NCBI GenBank assembly: GCA_030696775.1
Contig: JAUYRN010000005.1
Span: 62,001-126,000 of the forward strand
Source of the DNA: Sulfuricurvum sp.
Lineage (GTDB): Bacteria > Campylobacterota > Campylobacteria > Campylobacterales > Sulfurimonadaceae
Direction of reading: 5' to 3'
DNA length: 64,000 nucleotides
The notes beneath the pieces were generated by a model. That model ran no database searches. It was not told where the DNA came from and was given only the letters and a program-made list of their open reading frames with translations. Below are positions 28,265-35,471 of the stretch, in pieces; the stretch's first letter is position 1; each line of letters begins with the position of its first letter. The position numbers were made by a program, and so were the translations under genes.

Positions 28265-29808
28265 TTAAGTACCGCCTTAAGTTCACTGAGATAGCCTGTA
28301 TTATTGCCATCATATGAGATTAATTTTAGATCAAAATCATAGGTGTCTTTTTTTGTCGCAGTTAAATATTTTAGTAAAGCAGTAATATCTTGTGTATTTT
28401 TAGCGCTAAGTATAAAGCAAAAAGTTTTACTTGAAATATTGTTTTCTTCATTTACTATTTCTGAATATCCCAATGAATTTAATTTAACTCTATATTGATT
28501 AAAACTACGCGAAAAGTCAGCAATAATTTTTGCTTTCATCGGATAATTTACTTTTTTCTCATGAACTTGAGAAAGAGTATCTTGTTTTTGTTTATAGGAA
28601 GCCTTTTGCTCGTCTAGAAGTCCTTGAGCGGTACTTTTAGTGGCTAGCTTCAGATTTACAGTGGCTTCACGAGTTGTTTTATCAATATGAACTTGCTCAT
28701 ATTCTTGATTCATAAGGGCATAATGAAACTCTTCAACATAAGAAAGTCCCCAGTAGGTTCCTGGATAAAGAAGTGCGGCTGCTAATGCGGCAGCGGTTAC
28801 AAGTATGAGTTTTCCACTATCACGTTTTGCAAATGGAGGAGGTCTATGAAAAATTGTAAAATTACACTCATATCGCTCATTGGATTCAAGCCGAGCATAT
28901 AAATGCATAAGTTGATGAATTTGATCAACGTTCTTTTCTTGTGTATTGAATCCAAAATCAAAATTAAAGGGTTGTACTTTTAGTCCAAGATAGGTTTGAG
29001 CATATTCATCTAAGCCGTTGATTTCACCTACAGACGCTCCAATATAAATGGATTCGAATTGTTTGATTTCGAAAGCTCGCTTTGAATAAGTAATGACATC
29101 GTTAACATGAAGAAAAATTTCACCAAAAAGTTTAAGTAAATTCTTTTGATATTCCGGACTATTGACATTTAATCCCTGAGTTGCAAGAATATTTTGAAAA
29201 CTTAATAACTCAATTGGTTCACCTAGTAATTCGCAAAAACGTTCATGCATTTGTTTAAGTGAATATTTTAGTGATTTAGTATAAATAAACTCTTGCTCAT
29301 TGTAAACAGCAAAAAAAGCATCATTTTCTTGAAAATAGATAAATCCATGAGCACCATTAGATTCAATGAAATTTTTCACATACAGTGATTTAAGCAATAA
29401 TGCTACAGGTACAATTTGATCAATATACTTTATGTCATTAACAATGGAGGCAAATTCCTGTGTTAATAAAAGAGGATCAACGACAAAAATATGAAAAAAG
29501 CGTTCACTATCACTGATATGATTGACGGCTTCAACATATTGAATTTGGTATTCAACTGCCATATCTAGAGCAAGTTCTTCATATACCTTATTTTCTAAAG
29601 CGTCATATATATCATCATCCGGGACATTTTTACTAATTCCAACCAGTGCAGAAATAAATCCTTTTGTGTTTAAAAAAGAAATGGCATACTGTTCTTTTGA
29701 AAAGGAAGGGGATGCAATATCCGTAATGCTATTAAGCGTACTAAGATAAAAATCTTTTCGGTACGGATTGGCAGATAGGATGGTAGAAAATGTATGTTGT
29801 ATGCTCAT
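28261..29808 (-). CDS. PilM-PilN-like (GspL/MshI-like) alignment-complex protein
   Basis: This 515-residue protein looks like a fusion of a cytoplasmic actin-like PilM/MshI domain (about 1-320) with a PilN-like part. A membrane helix (about 331-350, ILVTAAALAAALL) is followed by a periplasmic coiled coil and a ferredoxin-like domain (about 400-515). This is the GspL/MshI architecture. It would link the ATPase to PilO- and PilP-like proteins. Phosphate-loop residues of PilM are not clearly kept, as in MshI. Its start overlaps the carboxypeptidase stop (ATGA), the junction where cell-shape and DNA-uptake genes meet. Confidence 0.7.
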   Translation of the reverse strand: MSIQHTFSTILSANPYRKDFYLSTLNSITDIASPSFSKEQYAISFLNTKGFISALVGISKNVPDDDIYDALENKVYEELALDMAVEYQIQYVEAVNHISDSERFFHIFVVDPLLLTQEFASIVNDIKYIDQIVPVALLLKSLYVKNFIESNGAHGFIYFQENDAFFAVYNEQEFIYTKSLKYSLKQMHERFCELLGEPIELLSFQNILATQGLNVNSPEYQKNLLKLFGEIFLHVNDVITYSKRAFEIKQFESIYIGASVGEINGLDEYAQTYLGLKVQPFNFDFGFNTQEKNVDQIHQLMHLYARLESNERYECNFTIFHRPPPFAKRDSGKLILVTAAALAAALLYPGTYWGLSYVEEFHYALMNQEYEQVHIDKTTREATVNLKLATKSTAQGLLDEQKASYKQKQDTLSQVHEKKVNYPMKAKIIADFSRSFNQYRVKLNSLGYSEIVNEENNISSKTFCFILSAKNTQDITALLKYLTATKKDTYDFDLKLISYDGNNTGYLSELKAVLK

Positions 29809-31106
29809 TTCGTGTCCTGTTTAAAATGTGCGAGAATCATCCCACAAAAACGGTTACCTCTATAAAATTCAACTCGATAAACCTGATGGTCTCGATCGAG
29901 TGAATATTTAGGATCTAAATCATCCATGCTAACACGCACGTTAGCCTCATTTATCCCTTTTTTAGGCGAATAACCGATTATGTTTACTCGAATATCTTTA
30001 TTATGAAGTATAACCTTAAAATCGGCAGTTACTAAAAATTCTGTAGCAAAAGCGATATTTTTTTGATTGTTATCAACTTCAATGGTAATATTTTCATCAT
30101 AAACACCTGCTTCGTGAAAACTAGGTGTTAGTGAACTTGTTTTTTTATTACCAACATAAAGATCATACTTATCATTTTTTTTTACTGCAAAACCTAATGG
30201 ATGAGAAAAATTAAAGTTGTTACTGTCTGATTGTAACGGAATGAAACTTAATTCATTTCTTAAGTTTTCAAGATTTAGACTAGATGTGTTATTAATTGTA
30301 ACATTTCCGTCACATTCTAAAATATTTTTAAGATTTTCACTGTTTAAATCAAAAGATCTTGAATAAGAAATTCCCATATAGCGCATATAGCCTTCTATTG
30401 CGCGAAGTTGGTAAAAAACTTTTTCATTAAGTGTAGGAAGATTTTTACTCGTTTCGATTGCAAAGGCTGGTTTATTCTGATTAATAGCAAAGAAAGTGAG
30501 GGAGTGCTTCATTGCTTCATCATCAAAACGGGTGTTAGTATTACGTATAGCGAAACAGTGATGATTTTCAATGAGATTCCCATTTACTTCTTGTTGGACT
30601 GCTAACGCAATTTTGTCTAAATTTTTATATTGGTGATCACCATCGAGTGATTCTTGGTCAATAACACATGTTTGTCCCCATGCTCCTGGGTTGAAAATAG
30701 TATTCTGGTAGTCTTTTCTATAAAAACCATGACCATCATGCAAATTTAAAATAAGATCAACTTTTGGATCAGTTATGATTTTTTTTATCTCTTTAATGAT
30801 GTTGAGATCAGGATCGCTTGTATTTATATCTGCAAATTTTCGATTCATATCTCCATTAATACCACGACTGTTCATCGCAATGCTAAGAGCATTTAGGTTA
30901 GGAACAATCCAAAGATTTCCTTTATTAATGGTGTAATATTGGGAAAGAATGGATGCTGCAAAATAACTTCCAGGTTCATTTCCATGAATTCCACCTATAA
31001 CTAAAAGCGTTGGTCCATAATTTGTAGATGTTTCGTGTTTTATAAGTGAAAAGGGAAGAGCATAAGAAAACGATACAAAATAAAGAATAAATAGTATTAC
31101 TTTCAT
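29805..31106 (-). CDS. csd4: DL-carboxypeptidase of peptidoglycan, Csd4/Pgp1 (M14-like)
   Basis: The 433-residue periplasmic enzyme trims tripeptide stems of peptidoglycan to dipeptides, which sets helical or curved cell shape in Helicobacter and Campylobacter. A signal peptide (ILFILYFVSFSYA) is followed by an M14-type zinc carboxypeptidase domain with His41 and Glu44 (GGIHGNEPGS), His123 (LNLHDGHGF) and catalytic Glu218 (AIETSK). H. pylori Csd4 is recalled to use a Gln at the position of His41; here the classical His is present. Two further beta domains follow (about 250-433). I chose the ATG one base after the csd6 stop; a TTG start 18 bases earlier is the alternative. Confidence 0.9.
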   Translation of the reverse strand: MKVILFILYFVSFSYALPFSLIKHETSTNYGPTLLVIGGIHGNEPGSYFAASILSQYYTINKGNLWIVPNLNALSIAMNSRGINGDMNRKFADINTSDPDLNIIKEIKKIITDPKVDLILNLHDGHGFYRKDYQNTIFNPGAWGQTCVIDQESLDGDHQYKNLDKIALAVQQEVNGNLIENHHCFAIRNTNTRFDDEAMKHSLTFFAINQNKPAFAIETSKNLPTLNEKVFYQLRAIEGYMRYMGISYSRSFDLNSENLKNILECDGNVTINNTSSLNLENLRNELSFIPLQSDSNNFNFSHPLGFAVKKNDKYDLYVGNKKTSSLTPSFHEAGVYDENITIEVDNNQKNIAFATEFLVTADFKVILHNKDIRVNIIGYSPKKGINEANVRVSMDDLDPKYSLDRDHQVYRVEFYRGNRFCGMILAHFKQDTK

Positions 31107-31107
31107 A

Positions 31108-32079
31108 TCAAATCTCTGAAACAATGGAAATAGATTGATCTGTATTGAGCAGGAGCATTAATGTTTTAGGTCCGGTGAATGTATGATTGTTGCTAGTATA
31201 AACTTCATCAAATGTGACCATAAAAAGATTTTGGCGCTCACCAGGGTAAGGAATGATATTTAGATTGGAAAGAAGAATTTCTTTTGATTCTTTTTTATCA
31301 AAAATACGCTGTTTATAATTTTTAAAATCGTAATACTCCATTCCGTCGTAACGGATAAAAGTGGTATCATAAAAGGAGAGATAGGTTTGAAAATCGTTAT
31401 ATTTCCATGCATATCGCCATTGGTAGAGTTGTGCAATAATCGTTGCATAGGGAACGTTTAAATTTTCTTTTGGTTTAGTATCAATAACAAGTAGAGTATT
31501 TTTGTAATCAATCTTTTGGTCTAGGCTGGTTAGTTCGTTGTTGTCAATAACAATGCATCCTTTGGTAAAGTTATCTCGATCACCAGAAGCAGGTTGTCCA
31601 TGTATCCAAATTCCATCACCACTTTTTCCTCGAATACGGTCGTATAAATTGGGATAAGAAGTGACAAACGCCATCGGTCCGTAGAAAGGATCGACAGTCA
31701 ATAGCTTTTGGGTGAGTGAATAAATACCTATAGGAGTACGTCGATCTCCGGCACTTAATTTATCACCTTCATATTTTCCTGTAAATGCGGGAATGGTTTT
31801 TAAAAGAGCAAAGCGCTCATGTTTACCTTTGTTCTCTTTACGATAGAGACTTAGTGTAGGTTGATCTTTTTCGCATACAAGAAGCGTATCTGTAGCTTCA
31901 TAGTAACCAAATTTAAGATCTTTATTTAAAATCTTTGAATTCCAGAAGCTTGAATCACCGAGTCCGTGATCGATTTCTTTGGCGATAGCATTCATTCCTC
32001 CACTACGATATAAATCCATCACTTCACCTGCAAAAAGAGAAGTCATGAAAAATGGAAGTAATAAAAGTTTTTTTACCAT
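31108..32079 (-). CDS. csd6: L,D-carboxypeptidase/transpeptidase-fold enzyme Csd6/Pgp2
   Basis: A 323-residue secreted protein with signal peptide (LLLPFFMTSLFAG), an N-terminal helical dimerisation region, a YkuD domain with the catalytic pair His160 (IWIHGQ) and Cys175 (TKGCIV), and a C-terminal NTF2-like pocket (about 210-323). Csd6/Pgp2 removes the terminal D-Ala from tetrapeptides, giving the tripeptides that Csd4/Pgp1 cuts. The two consecutive activities are encoded next to each other here. The gene overlaps era by 7 bp. Adjacency of era and csd6 is also found in H. pylori. Confidence 0.93.
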   Translation of the reverse strand: MVKKLLLLPFFMTSLFAGEVMDLYRSGGMNAIAKEIDHGLGDSSFWNSKILNKDLKFGYYEATDTLLVCEKDQPTLSLYRKENKGKHERFALLKTIPAFTGKYEGDKLSAGDRRTPIGIYSLTQKLLTVDPFYGPMAFVTSYPNLYDRIRGKSGDGIWIHGQPASGDRDNFTKGCIVIDNNELTSLDQKIDYKNTLLVIDTKPKENLNVPYATIIAQLYQWRYAWKYNDFQTYLSFYDTTFIRYDGMEYYDFKNYKQRIFDKKESKEILLSNLNIIPYPGERQNLFMVTFDEVYTSNNHTFTGPKTLMLLLNTDQSISIVSEI

Positions 32080-32951
32080 TCGTATCCTAAATCACTTAAG
32101 AACTTTTTATCGGTAGTCCACCCTTTTTTGACGGATACAAAAAGTTCAAGATAAACGGGTTTCGTGGAAAGACGCTCAATTTTCTCACGGGCATTTTTGC
32201 CGATGCGCTTAATGGCAACGCCTCCCTTACCAATAATAATCCCTTTTTGGGACTCTTTTTCAACAATAATAGTGGCTCGAATATGTTCTGTTGGAGAGTC
32301 TTCATCGATTTTATCAATTAACACGTCAGATTCATAAGGAATTTCATCACTAATATTATCGAAAATCGCTTCACGAATAAATTCTTTGTATATGGTACGT
32401 ATCATTTCTGTTGTAATGTTTTCAGGATCATAGAGATAGGGTGATTCATTTAGATGCTTAATAATCGTATTAAGTAAATCCTCTTTTCCTACATTCTTAG
32501 TAACTGACATAGGAATAAGGGCTTCAAATTTATCACTGTATTGATTGTACTCGCCAATTTTTTTCAGTAAATCACCTTGAGAAATTTGATCGATTTTACT
32601 GAGAACGATTATGTGTTTGCGTTTGTTTCCATTAATTTCTAAAAATTTCTCATAATAGCTCGTTTTATCGGATGCGGGTGCTAAGTAAACAACAATATCA
32701 CAATCACCAATTGCTTTGAGAGCTTCTTCTAGCATGTATTGATTGAGAAGCTTTTCGGCCTGGTGCAGTCCAGGTGTATCTACAAAAATAATTTGATCGT
32801 CATTATGCATGACAATTGCATTCGAGCGTTTACGTGTAGCATTTGCCTTTTGGCTTACAAGGGCAATTTTTTCTCCCAGTATCCAGTTCATCATGGTGCT
32901 TTTACCCGCATTAGGTCGCCCGATAAGAGCTACAAACCCTGCTTTACTCAC
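32073..32951 (-). CDS. era: GTPase Era
   Basis: The 292-residue GTPase helps 16S rRNA maturation and 30S assembly. The G1 motif GRPNAGKS (residues 11-18), switch I region [10 protein letters not shown]3 DTPGLH and G4-like LSKID are present; G4 has Ser in place of Asn (SKID for NKxD). The C-terminal KH domain has [19 protein letters not shown]. It starts with GTG, overlapping the rplI stop by 4 bp (GTGA), so translation of era depends on rplI. In C. jejuni and H. pylori hslV and hslU lie between rplI and era; here they are absent. Confidence 0.95.
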
Positions 32952-33397
32952 GAAAGGCCCTGAATTTCAAGATGCAATGTTGCATGAATTCCATGCCCAA
33001 GCTTAAGGTCTAAGTCATGCAATCCAACGGTTTTAATTCCATGTTTTGCATCCAACTCTTTTTTATCGATCTCTATTGTGTGTTGGTCCTGTAATGCTTG
33101 AGCAATTTCCTCTTTTGTTACGGAGCCAAAAAGATGTCCTGTATCACCAAGTTTTTTCTTGATGACTACTTTAATCTCGGCTAGTGTTGCTTTGATGGCA
33201 TTTAAGCGTTCAATTTCGGCAGCTTCATGTGCCGTTTTTTTACGCTGATCGGACTCGTATTTTTTTAATACTTCGTTCGTTGCAAGAAGTGCAAGCCCTT
33301 TTCCGATAAGAAAATTTTTGCCGTAGCCATCTGCTACTTCTTTGATTTCGCCAGCTTTACCGACACCTTTGACGTCTTTACTTAATAATACTTTCAT
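32948..33397 (-). CDS. rplI: 50S ribosomal protein L9
   Basis: The 149-residue protein has the L9 N-terminal domain ([33 protein letters not shown]), the long central helix and the C-terminal domain ending in HATLHLEIQ. It binds 23S rRNA near the L1 stalk. It is the first gene of the 13-gene tightly packed run that ends at gspF. A gap of 99 bp separates it from the upstream rhodanese gene and probably contains a promoter, though no clear -10 is seen. Confidence 0.97.
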
Positions 33398-33496: not shown

Positions 33497-34237
33497 TTAG
33501 CCGCGGATAATTTTGCCGTTAAAACTGACAATTCCGTGAGCGAGGTTGGACACTTTTGTGAAACCCATATCAGTTAAGATACGTTGACAGTGAGCACTTC
33601 GACTACCAACGTGGCAGTAGACAATAATGTTATCATCGTTTTTTAGTTCAGCTTCATTAAGAGTTTGAAAAAAACTGCTGGTAGGGATTAGAACATCAGC
33701 TCCTTCAATACGTCCTGATTTCCATTCCATCCATTCGCGTACATCAACGAGTTTAAACGTTACCATTCCAAGTTCGCGCGCTTCAAAGAGTGAGATTAGT
33801 TCATCTGAATCAATATTACGTTTTTGAAGTAAAAATTCGCATTCTTCTGTTGTTAGACCTCGTGAATGTTGATGGGCAACGGTTTCAATCTCTTCAGATT
33901 TCATTAAAGATGCTGCGTATTCTGGCGTACAGAAGATTTGACAGTGACAGACACCATCTTCAGGGATTTCTTTTTCAATAGCTGGGGTACAAGGACAAAG
34001 TCTATTGTCACTGCTTTTATAAACACCATCAATTTCTTCAACCATATAACAAGGACAAAATCGCTTGTTGTACATCATTTTATTACGAGCGAGTCCCATT
34101 TGAACCCCCTCATTAATTTCAGAATGAGGATTATAAACCCAATTAAACTGTTTGACTACTTTATCTGTAAATTTAATCGTTTTTTCAAGTTCAGCCTGAA
34201 ACTCAGGCGAATTCATATCGATTTTGATAATGCTCAT
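33497..34237 (-). CDS. Ferredoxin:thioredoxin reductase catalytic-like domain fused to rhodanese
   Basis: The 246-residue protein has no signal peptide. Residues 20-110 carry the cysteine pattern of the FTR catalytic subunit: CPC at 61-63, CPC at 81-83, CHC at 97-99 and Cys103. These would hold a [4Fe-4S] cluster next to a redox-active disulfide. Spacings (17 and 13 residues between motifs) are longer than in plant FTR. Residues 155-246 form a rhodanese domain with the active-site loop CHVGSRS (Cys208). The fusion suggests coupling of iron-sulfur electron transfer to persulfide handling. It lies 13 bp after argG on the same strand. Confidence 0.88.
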   Translation of the reverse strand: MSIIKIDMNSPEFQAELEKTIKFTDKVVKQFNWVYNPHSEINEGVQMGLARNKMMYNKRFCPCYMVEEIDGVYKSSDNRLCPCTPAIEKEIPEDGVCHCQIFCTPEYAASLMKSEEIETVAHQHSRGLTTEECEFLLQKRNIDSDELISLFEARELGMVTFKLVDVREWMEWKSGRIEGADVLIPTSSFFQTLNEAELKNDDNIIVYCHVGSRSAHCQRILTDMGFTKVSNLAHGIVSFNGKIIRG

Positions 34238-34250
34238 TTTTTATCCTTTA

Positions 34251-35471
34251 TTATTTGTTTTTCCGTGCTTTTCCAGCGATAATGAAGCGCAATGCATTGA
34301 GTTTAATAAACCCTCCTGCATCTTTTTGGTCATAAACAGAATCTTCTTCAAAAGTACAGTACTCAGGGTTAAAAAGAGAAATGTCAGAGCTGCGTCCAAC
34401 CACCATTATATTACCTTTGTAGAGTTTCAAACGAACGGTTCCACGAACATTTTGCTGAGTTTTATCGATAGCGGCTTGTAGCATTTCACGCTCTGGTGCA
34501 AACCAAAAACCATTATAAATAAGTTTTGCATAGCGTGGCATAAGCTCGTCTTTTAGGTGTGCTTCTTCACGATCCAAGGTTAAAGATTCGATAGCACGGT
34601 GAGCTTTGAGCATTACAGTCCCACCTGGTGTTTCATAGCATCCACGGCTTTTCATTCCTACAAAACGATTTTCAACAATATCAGCGCGTCCGATTCCATG
34701 ACGACCTGCAATGATATTGAGCTGTTCTAGCATTACAGCCGGAGAGAGAGATTTGCCATTTAGGGTAATTGGATCACCTTTTTCGTAGCCAATTTCAATG
34801 TATTCACTCTCATCAGGGGCATTTTCTGGAGAAGTTGTCCAACGCCACATGCTCTCTTCAGGTTCAGATGCCGGATCTTCGAGTATTCCACCTTCATACG
34901 AAATATGTAAGAGATTGGCATCCATGGAATAGGGCGACTTCGTTCCGCTCATTTCAATTTTAATGCCATGCTCTGCTGCATAGGCTAGGAGTTTTTCTCG
35001 TGAATTAAGCTCCCATTCTCGCCATGGTGCAATGATAGTTAAAGCACTATTTTGTCCTAAGTATCCCATTTCAAAACGGACTTGATCATTCCCTTTTCCT
35101 GTTGCGCCATGACTAACGGCGTCTGCTCCAGTAATACGAGCAATTTCTGCTTGGCGTTTAGCAATTAGTGGACGTGCGATAGACGTCCCAAGAAGGTATT
35201 CTCCCTCATAGATAGCGTTAGCACGAAACATTGGAAATACGTAATCGCGGACAAATTCTTCACGGAGATCTTCGATGTAGATATTCTCCGGTTTGATACC
35301 GAGACTAATTGCTTTTGCGCGGGCCGGTTCTACTTCTTCACCTTGGCCAATATCAGCAGTAAATGTAACAACCTCACATTTGTATTCATCTTGAAGCCAT
35401 TTGAGGATAACGCTGGTATCCAAACCACCTGAATACGCGAGTACGACTTTTTTAACCTCTTTTTTCATCAT
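34251..35471 (-). CDS. argG: Argininosuccinate synthase
   Basis: A 406-residue enzyme that joins citrulline and aspartate with ATP in arginine synthesis. The PP-loop AYSGGLDTS is at about residue 11, followed by family motifs [15 protein letters not shown] and [19 protein letters not shown]. The start may be either of two adjacent ATGs (35471 or 35468). The argG-rplI order with genes in between is shared with Campylobacter (argG, rplI, hslV, hslU, era). The length is normal. Confidence 0.97.

Follow-up and report, generated by a model that had tools for sequence, protein, structure and literature searches.

The window, by which we mean the whole 64,000-nucleotide stretch of Sulfuricurvum sp. 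DNA that was analysed, contains between argG and rplI a single unbroken frame whose 246-residue product joins the catalytic domain of a ferredoxin:thioredoxin reductase (FTR) to a rhodanese (Table 1). A Pfam scan of this protein returned these two domains alone, FeThRed_B (PF02943) at 108.7 bits against a curated cut-off of 22 and Rhodanese (PF00581) at 57.7 bits against a cut-off of 22.2. The sequence-only reading that preceded this work had described an FTR-like domain fused to a rhodanese in one cytosolic protein, and with both domains over their cut-offs in one intact frame the fusion is real; the gene lies on the minus strand, a detail absent from that reading, and its product is probably cytosolic. 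The rhodanese half combines the profile match with a catalytic cysteine, Cys208, inside a CX4R loop (CHVGSRS). Since every genome of the genus, 25 of 25, yields a full-length match to the protein and both Pfam domains occur in 56 of 56 aligned relatives, the fusion is not a chance event. We could rule out a selenoprotein or a variant with an in-frame stop for the Sulfuricurvum gene, which has cysteine codons and zero in-frame stops. Some relatives have stops inside their FTR matches; in those examined at the level of open frames, the stops fall at the end of a gene or separate two split genes.

Table 1. Features of the fusion gene and its flanks, in positions of the window
Feature	Position	Strand	Basis
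argG, syntenic neighbour 13 nt upstream of the fusion	34251..35471	-	Pfam
AAAGGA, ribosome-binding-like, 5' of the start codon	34244..34249	-	read from the sequence
FTR-rhodanese fusion gene, 246 aa	33497..34237	-	open frame and Pfam domains; genus- and phylum-wide conservation
FeThRed_B (FTR catalytic) domain, residues 16-120	33878..34192	-	Pfam E=1.9e-31; Foldseek, model matches 1dj7
First CPC: Cys61, predicted to bind the cluster, and Cys63, predicted to be redox-active	34049..34057	-	aligned to 1dj7 C55/C57; invariant 78/78
Second CPC: Cys81 and Cys83 (predicted cluster ligands)	33989..33997	-	aligned to 1dj7 C74/C76; invariant
CHC: Cys97, predicted to bind the cluster, and Cys99, predicted to form the redox-active pair with Cys63	33941..33949	-	aligned to 1dj7 C85/C87; invariant
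Cys103, seventh conserved cysteine, peculiar to the Campylobacterota FTR group	33929..33931	-	76/78 fusions
Linker with helices, residues 121-159	33761..33877	-	secondary structure of the AlphaFold2 model
Rhodanese domain, residues 160-240	33518..33760	-	Pfam E=1.7e-15; VIA-align Z ~12-16 to solved rhodaneses
Rhodanese active-site loop CHVGSRS, Cys208 its first residue	33596..33616	-	Cys208 in 77/78 representatives
rplI, syntenic neighbour 99 nt downstream of the fusion	32948..33397	-	Pfam; synteny

In 100 of 100 loci (L001-L100), a count that includes near-duplicates, the gene immediately upstream of the fusion is argG. The fusion has argG, rplI and era as neighbours in the home lineage; other families have different ones, and among the families compared we found no conserved operon partner and no conserved sulfur-metabolism neighbourhood. 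The interval between argG and rplI holds the fusion in Sulfurimonadaceae-type loci and a stand-alone rhodanese in ten loci of families f19 and f11. These stand-alone rhodaneses are divergent (L235-L242, L244 and L245, excluding L243), and some of the genomes that have one carry the fusion at another place. Tandem duplicates of the whole fusion occur at L062:6004-7478 and L213:4998-6472 (G354), and an extra stand-alone rhodanese gene is found close to the fusion at L188:6365-6700 and L120:634-987. Beside era, positions 29805-32079 of the window encode, by Pfam, an L,D-transpeptidase whose C-terminal domain is of the Cds6 type, together with a carboxypeptidase (M99) that belongs to the helical cell-shape family; judging from their domains, these are probably cell-shape genes.

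The sequence-only reading had recognised the CPC-CPC-CHC pattern of the FTR catalytic subunit, and the alignment bears it out, as all six FTR cysteines pair one-to-one with C55, C57, C74, C76, C85 and C87 of the solved chain 1dj7. In FTR, C57 and C87 (1dj7 numbering) form the active disulfide, and on this basis Cys63 and Cys99 are the expected redox pair and Cys61, Cys81, Cys83 and Cys97 the expected cluster ligands. When the fusions are reduced at 85% identity the six cysteines are invariant (78/78), while Cys208, which that reading had named as the active cysteine of the rhodanese and which indeed heads the loop, is kept in 77 of 78. Each of the 227 FTR open frames, a redundant set, has all three Cys-X-Cys pairs; 203 of these frames are fused to a rhodanese and 24 are without one. 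The FTR domain is the more conserved half of the protein, with 15 columns invariant even when the stand-alone copies are included. Cys103 sits four residues past the CHC motif and is near-invariant across the Campylobacterota FTR domains (23 of the 24 stand-alone open frames have it too); at the equivalent position 1dj7 has Leu and 4tpu has Val. At one locus (L176:5001-5735, genome G334) the rhodanese loop is degenerate, with Ser in place of Cys208 and the six FTR cysteines intact. In FTR selenoproteins, selenocysteine is found at exactly the two redox-active positions, according to the portion of PMC2398784 available.

An AlphaFold2 model built from 56 aligned sequences has a mean pLDDT of 86 and a pTM of 0.64. 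Its confidence drops to 68-79 per ten residues, which is low, across the cysteine region at residues 61-100. In Foldseek this one model matches both rhodaneses and FTR catalytic chains, the latter with an rmsd of 2.6 over 97 columns to 1dj7, and the rhodanese matches include CoADR-rhodanese and persulfide dioxygenase-rhodanese proteins. The VIA-align rows listed lie mainly over the rhodanese half and are therefore uninformative on the FTR half. A search of the viral structure library gave zero matches below E=0.001. The linker residues H124 to L128 (HSRGL) are invariant in alignment A1. The sequence-only reading had staked itself on a cysteine spacing that fits FTR cluster geometry; judged by alignment and fold only, the spacing appears compatible, and the claim stands at that level.

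The fusion is widespread in Campylobacterota, where the sequence-only reading had proposed to look for it. In our sample of 397 genomes of this phylum, 171 match the fusion protein at 1e-12, and counted from the match table 142 carry an uninterrupted full-length fusion, two have adjacent separate genes only (G391 and G398) and the remaining 27 show one domain only or a weak match. The FTR domain itself is present in 164 of the 397. Some genomes, such as G065 and G070, give an FTR-sized match only, so the FTR domain can function without a fused rhodanese. Among the best 80 of 143 confirmed loci in named genomes, all at least 67% identical and from Campylobacterota members or bacterial bins, the closest relatives (98% identical) come from metagenome-assembled genomes labelled Sulfuricurvum and Campylobacterales. 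Families f11 and f14, which dominate among the negatives listed, look like Campylobacter- and Helicobacter-type lineages from the relationships of their proteins: one ArgG of f11 scores high to 4nzp and one TrxB of f14 to 2q0k, structures that we take to be from C. jejuni and H. pylori, respectively.

In Sulfurovum-type genomes the two domains also occur side by side. On a Sulfurovum mangrovi plasmid, the sole match over the FTR part among plasmid records, the record annotation shows an FTR and a rhodanese as adjacent separate genes, the former already annotated as a ferredoxin-thioredoxin reductase catalytic domain-containing protein. Nine further split loci were found (L165-L168, L249, L252, L253, L255 and L263), and some split-pair genomes (G292, G253 and G249) have the fusion as well. 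In a rhodanese tree of 38 rows (one of which, L212, is labelled as an argG-linked fusion though argG is absent there), the fused domains form one group with 98/98 support that includes three long-branch stand-alone rows, and the split-pair rhodaneses and the stand-alone rhodaneses of the argG-rplI interval fall outside it. Because the split-pair rhodaneses lie outside the fused group, the pairing of FTR with rhodanese recurs in a second form. An independent fusion at the argG-rplI locus is unsupported, as the tree sets the fused domains apart from the stand-alone ones there. Both this tree and the FTR tree, which needs three label changes, are weak, with few columns (about 120); the simplest reading of them would be one old fusion and a second, operonic pairing. 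In a further arrangement, the FTR-rhodanese gene directly follows a stand-alone FTR gene that overlaps or abuts it (L187-L192 of family f16, L210 in G036 and L169 in G277), so the two products may be made together and may form a mixed dimer.

The sequence-only reading had suggested that such a protein would suit a sulfur-oxidising or autotrophic organism, and this holds only loosely. In raw counts that ignore kinship, 89 of 91 genomes with SoxB and 113 of 119 with ATP-citrate lyase carry the FTR domain (the latter count leaves out G236, G269 and G284, which at about 27 bits are barely above the cut-off, and rows below it), but 75 of the 164 FTR genomes are without SoxB, 51 are without ATP-citrate lyase and 21 are without both. 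As the association is incomplete and confounded by lineage, we do not count it as functional evidence; the presence of the FTR domain tracks lineage rather than sulfur oxidation. In Sulfurovum indicum, two rhodanese-like genes with consecutive locus tags are up about 2.8-fold on elemental sulfur oxidation, according to the part of PMC10045233 available, which does not imply that they belong to the FTR-rhodanese family.

The FTR assignment is correct for the domain, not in the sense of a classical heterodimeric FTR. The two gaps between cysteine pairs are 17 and 13 residues in the Sulfuricurvum protein compared to 16 and 8 in 1dj7, and across the phylum the first spans 11-20 residues and the last 12 or 13. 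A search of 101 Campylobacterota genomes for FeThRed_A, the alpha or variable chain of FTR, found it in none, while the Synechococcus positive control was detected. When a profile of 59 rows, fused and stand-alone FTR domains together (A2), was run against PDB chains, the best match was 4tpu (E=5.1e-9), followed by 7pwe, with plant and cyanobacterial chains behind. The longer last spacing and the missing alpha chain place the fusion with the alpha-less type that resembles 4tpu, the ferredoxin-dependent disulfide reductase (FDR) of Methanosarcina. A distinct subgroup with longer spacings, as first suggested from the sequence, is therefore confirmed, but its hallmark is shared with this solved archaeal enzyme, whose last gap is 12.

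Taken together, we tentatively propose, with confidence a little short of even, that the protein is a ferredoxin-linked persulfide reductase, an alpha-less FTR/FDR-type reductase with a tethered carrier for its sulfur substrate that resembles NADH-dependent persulfide reductase (Npsr). Sulfane sulfur, whether it comes from thiosulfate, polysulfide or a thiol persulfide, would be bound on Cys208 as a persulfide and presented to the dithiol-disulfide of Cys63 and Cys99, next to a [4Fe-4S] cluster that Cys61, Cys81, Cys83 and Cys97 are predicted to hold. Two electrons, delivered one at a time and most likely by a low-potential ferredoxin, would regenerate the dithiol, and the reaction would run in the reductive direction, with sulfide released or the reduced sulfur passed on. 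It is possible, though we hold this more hesitantly than the proposal for the single protein, that the fusions form a hitherto undescribed class of ferredoxin-dependent persulfide reductases, ancient and common among Campylobacterota, whose iron-sulfur FTR-type centre acts on the persulfide of the rhodanese tethered to it. Several observations point to persulfide reduction: both active sites are intact and conserved jointly, the fusion recurs in 142 genomes with the split adjacent-gene form besides, no FeThRed_A is found and the nearest solved relatives by profile are 4tpu and 7pwe, and Npsr provides a precedent for a reductase with a C-terminal rhodanese (PMC7969121, in the part available). 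Several others tell against it: no sulfur-metabolism neighbourhood is conserved in the families compared, the distribution follows lineage, one fusion has lost its rhodanese cysteine and retained those of the FTR domain, FTR-sized-only matches and stand-alone FTR domains exist, and the model has a pTM of 0.64 with low confidence at residues 61-100.

One alternative is a ferredoxin-dependent reductase that acts on disulfides of thioredoxin-like or other proteins, with a rhodanese that serves for docking, sensing or regulation and not as a substrate carrier. This would explain why the FTR domain is the more conserved half and why 24 FTR open frames are without a rhodanese and one fusion without its cysteine; a thioredoxin-family gene is also the second listed gene downstream of the S. 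mangrovi split pair. However, Cys208 and its loop are kept in all but one of the 78 fusions and the pairing exists in two forms, which points to a catalytic rhodanese, and we regard this alternative as rather unlikely. Replacement of thioredoxin reductase by the fusion is ruled out by TrxB-like proteins, which match in 24 of 24 panel genomes (20 above the cut-off; 334 vs 343 bits in the Sulfuricurvum genome of the window). The fusion need not serve general thioredoxin reduction, which is probably covered elsewhere. Less probable again is that the rhodanese donates its persulfide sulfur to biosynthesis (thiolation, Fe-S assembly or thiocarboxylates) and the FTR domain sets the redox state of the donor or recycles a disulfide. 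The rhodanese does score against the rhodanese modules of MoeZ and MoeB (E ~1e-13 to 1e-12), and sulfur-respiration genes are not consistently adjacent to the fusion, but the MoeZ/MoeB-type NCBIfam matches are all far under their curated cut-offs and a biosynthetic acceptor gene is not among the conserved neighbours. The lineage-bound distribution with no pathway neighbour would fit a housekeeping or regulatory role, such as a sensor of redox state or sulfane sulfur whose cluster and disulfide do not turn over; Pfam finds neither a DNA-binding nor a signalling domain, and both catalytic sites are complete and conserved, so a sensor seems very improbable. The split-gene versions and the strong conservation of the residues make persulfide reduction by the FTR centre directly testable.

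What appears to be new here is the joining of an FTR-type reductase to a rhodanese; each part was already known, as was the FDR-type spacing in the solved archaeal enzyme. The fusion is not described in the open-access literature as searched by title and the opening of the abstract, a scope outside which subscription papers lie, so an earlier description is possible; the available portions of Campylobacterota papers mention rhodaneses and not an FTR-rhodanese protein. FTR-type centres are known for moving electrons from ferredoxin to protein disulfides. If the proposal is right, Campylobacterota such as Sulfurimonas, Sulfuricurvum and Sulfurovum would have an intracellular route from ferredoxin to sulfane sulfur, and sulfane-sulfur homeostasis inside the cell would be coupled directly to the low-potential ferredoxin pool.

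Among known systems, the catalytic chains of plant and cyanobacterial FTR (1dj7, 2pu9 and 7bzk) share the six cysteines and superpose on the model at 2.6-3.1 A, but they have the shorter last spacing and work with an alpha chain of the kind that was not found in the phylum sample; the fused rhodanese and Cys103 are extras of the Campylobacterota protein. The M. acetivorans FDR (4tpu) has the same FTR-type catalytic domain with a similarly long spacing before the last Cys-X-Cys, and its entry title, ferredoxin-dependent disulfide reductase, gives ferredoxin as the donor. It differs from the fusion in that it lacks Cys103 and its chain is deposited under the name rubredoxin; of its 173 residues the FTR match takes in 4-95, and no match to a rhodanese was obtained in it. 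The FtrB double selenoprotein family (NCBIfam NF041072) is a relative in the FTR domain (E=7.4e-17), but the fusion protein scores 61.3 against a cut-off of 160 and has cysteine where that family has selenocysteine at the redox positions (PMC2398784, in the part available). On the rhodanese side, the persulfide dioxygenase-rhodanese fusion PRF (5ve3) is also a sulfur-handling enzyme with a C-terminal rhodanese, yet its catalytic half is of another family and, by its name, oxidises and does not reduce. Closest in plan are Npsr (6pfz and 3nta) and CoADR-RHD (3icr), whose chains are among the structural matches of the fusion model: they have the same order of a disulfide reductase followed by a C-terminal rhodanese, and the rhodanese domains superpose, whereas the reductase in them belongs to a different family of FAD/NAD(P)H proteins, one that Pfam does not find in the fusion. 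In Npsr, a flavin disulfide reductase, the cysteine of the C-terminal rhodanese is described as the initial sulfur acceptor (PMC7969121, in the part available), and the Campylobacterota protein, if our proposal holds, would be the iron-sulfur counterpart of these flavin persulfide reductases.
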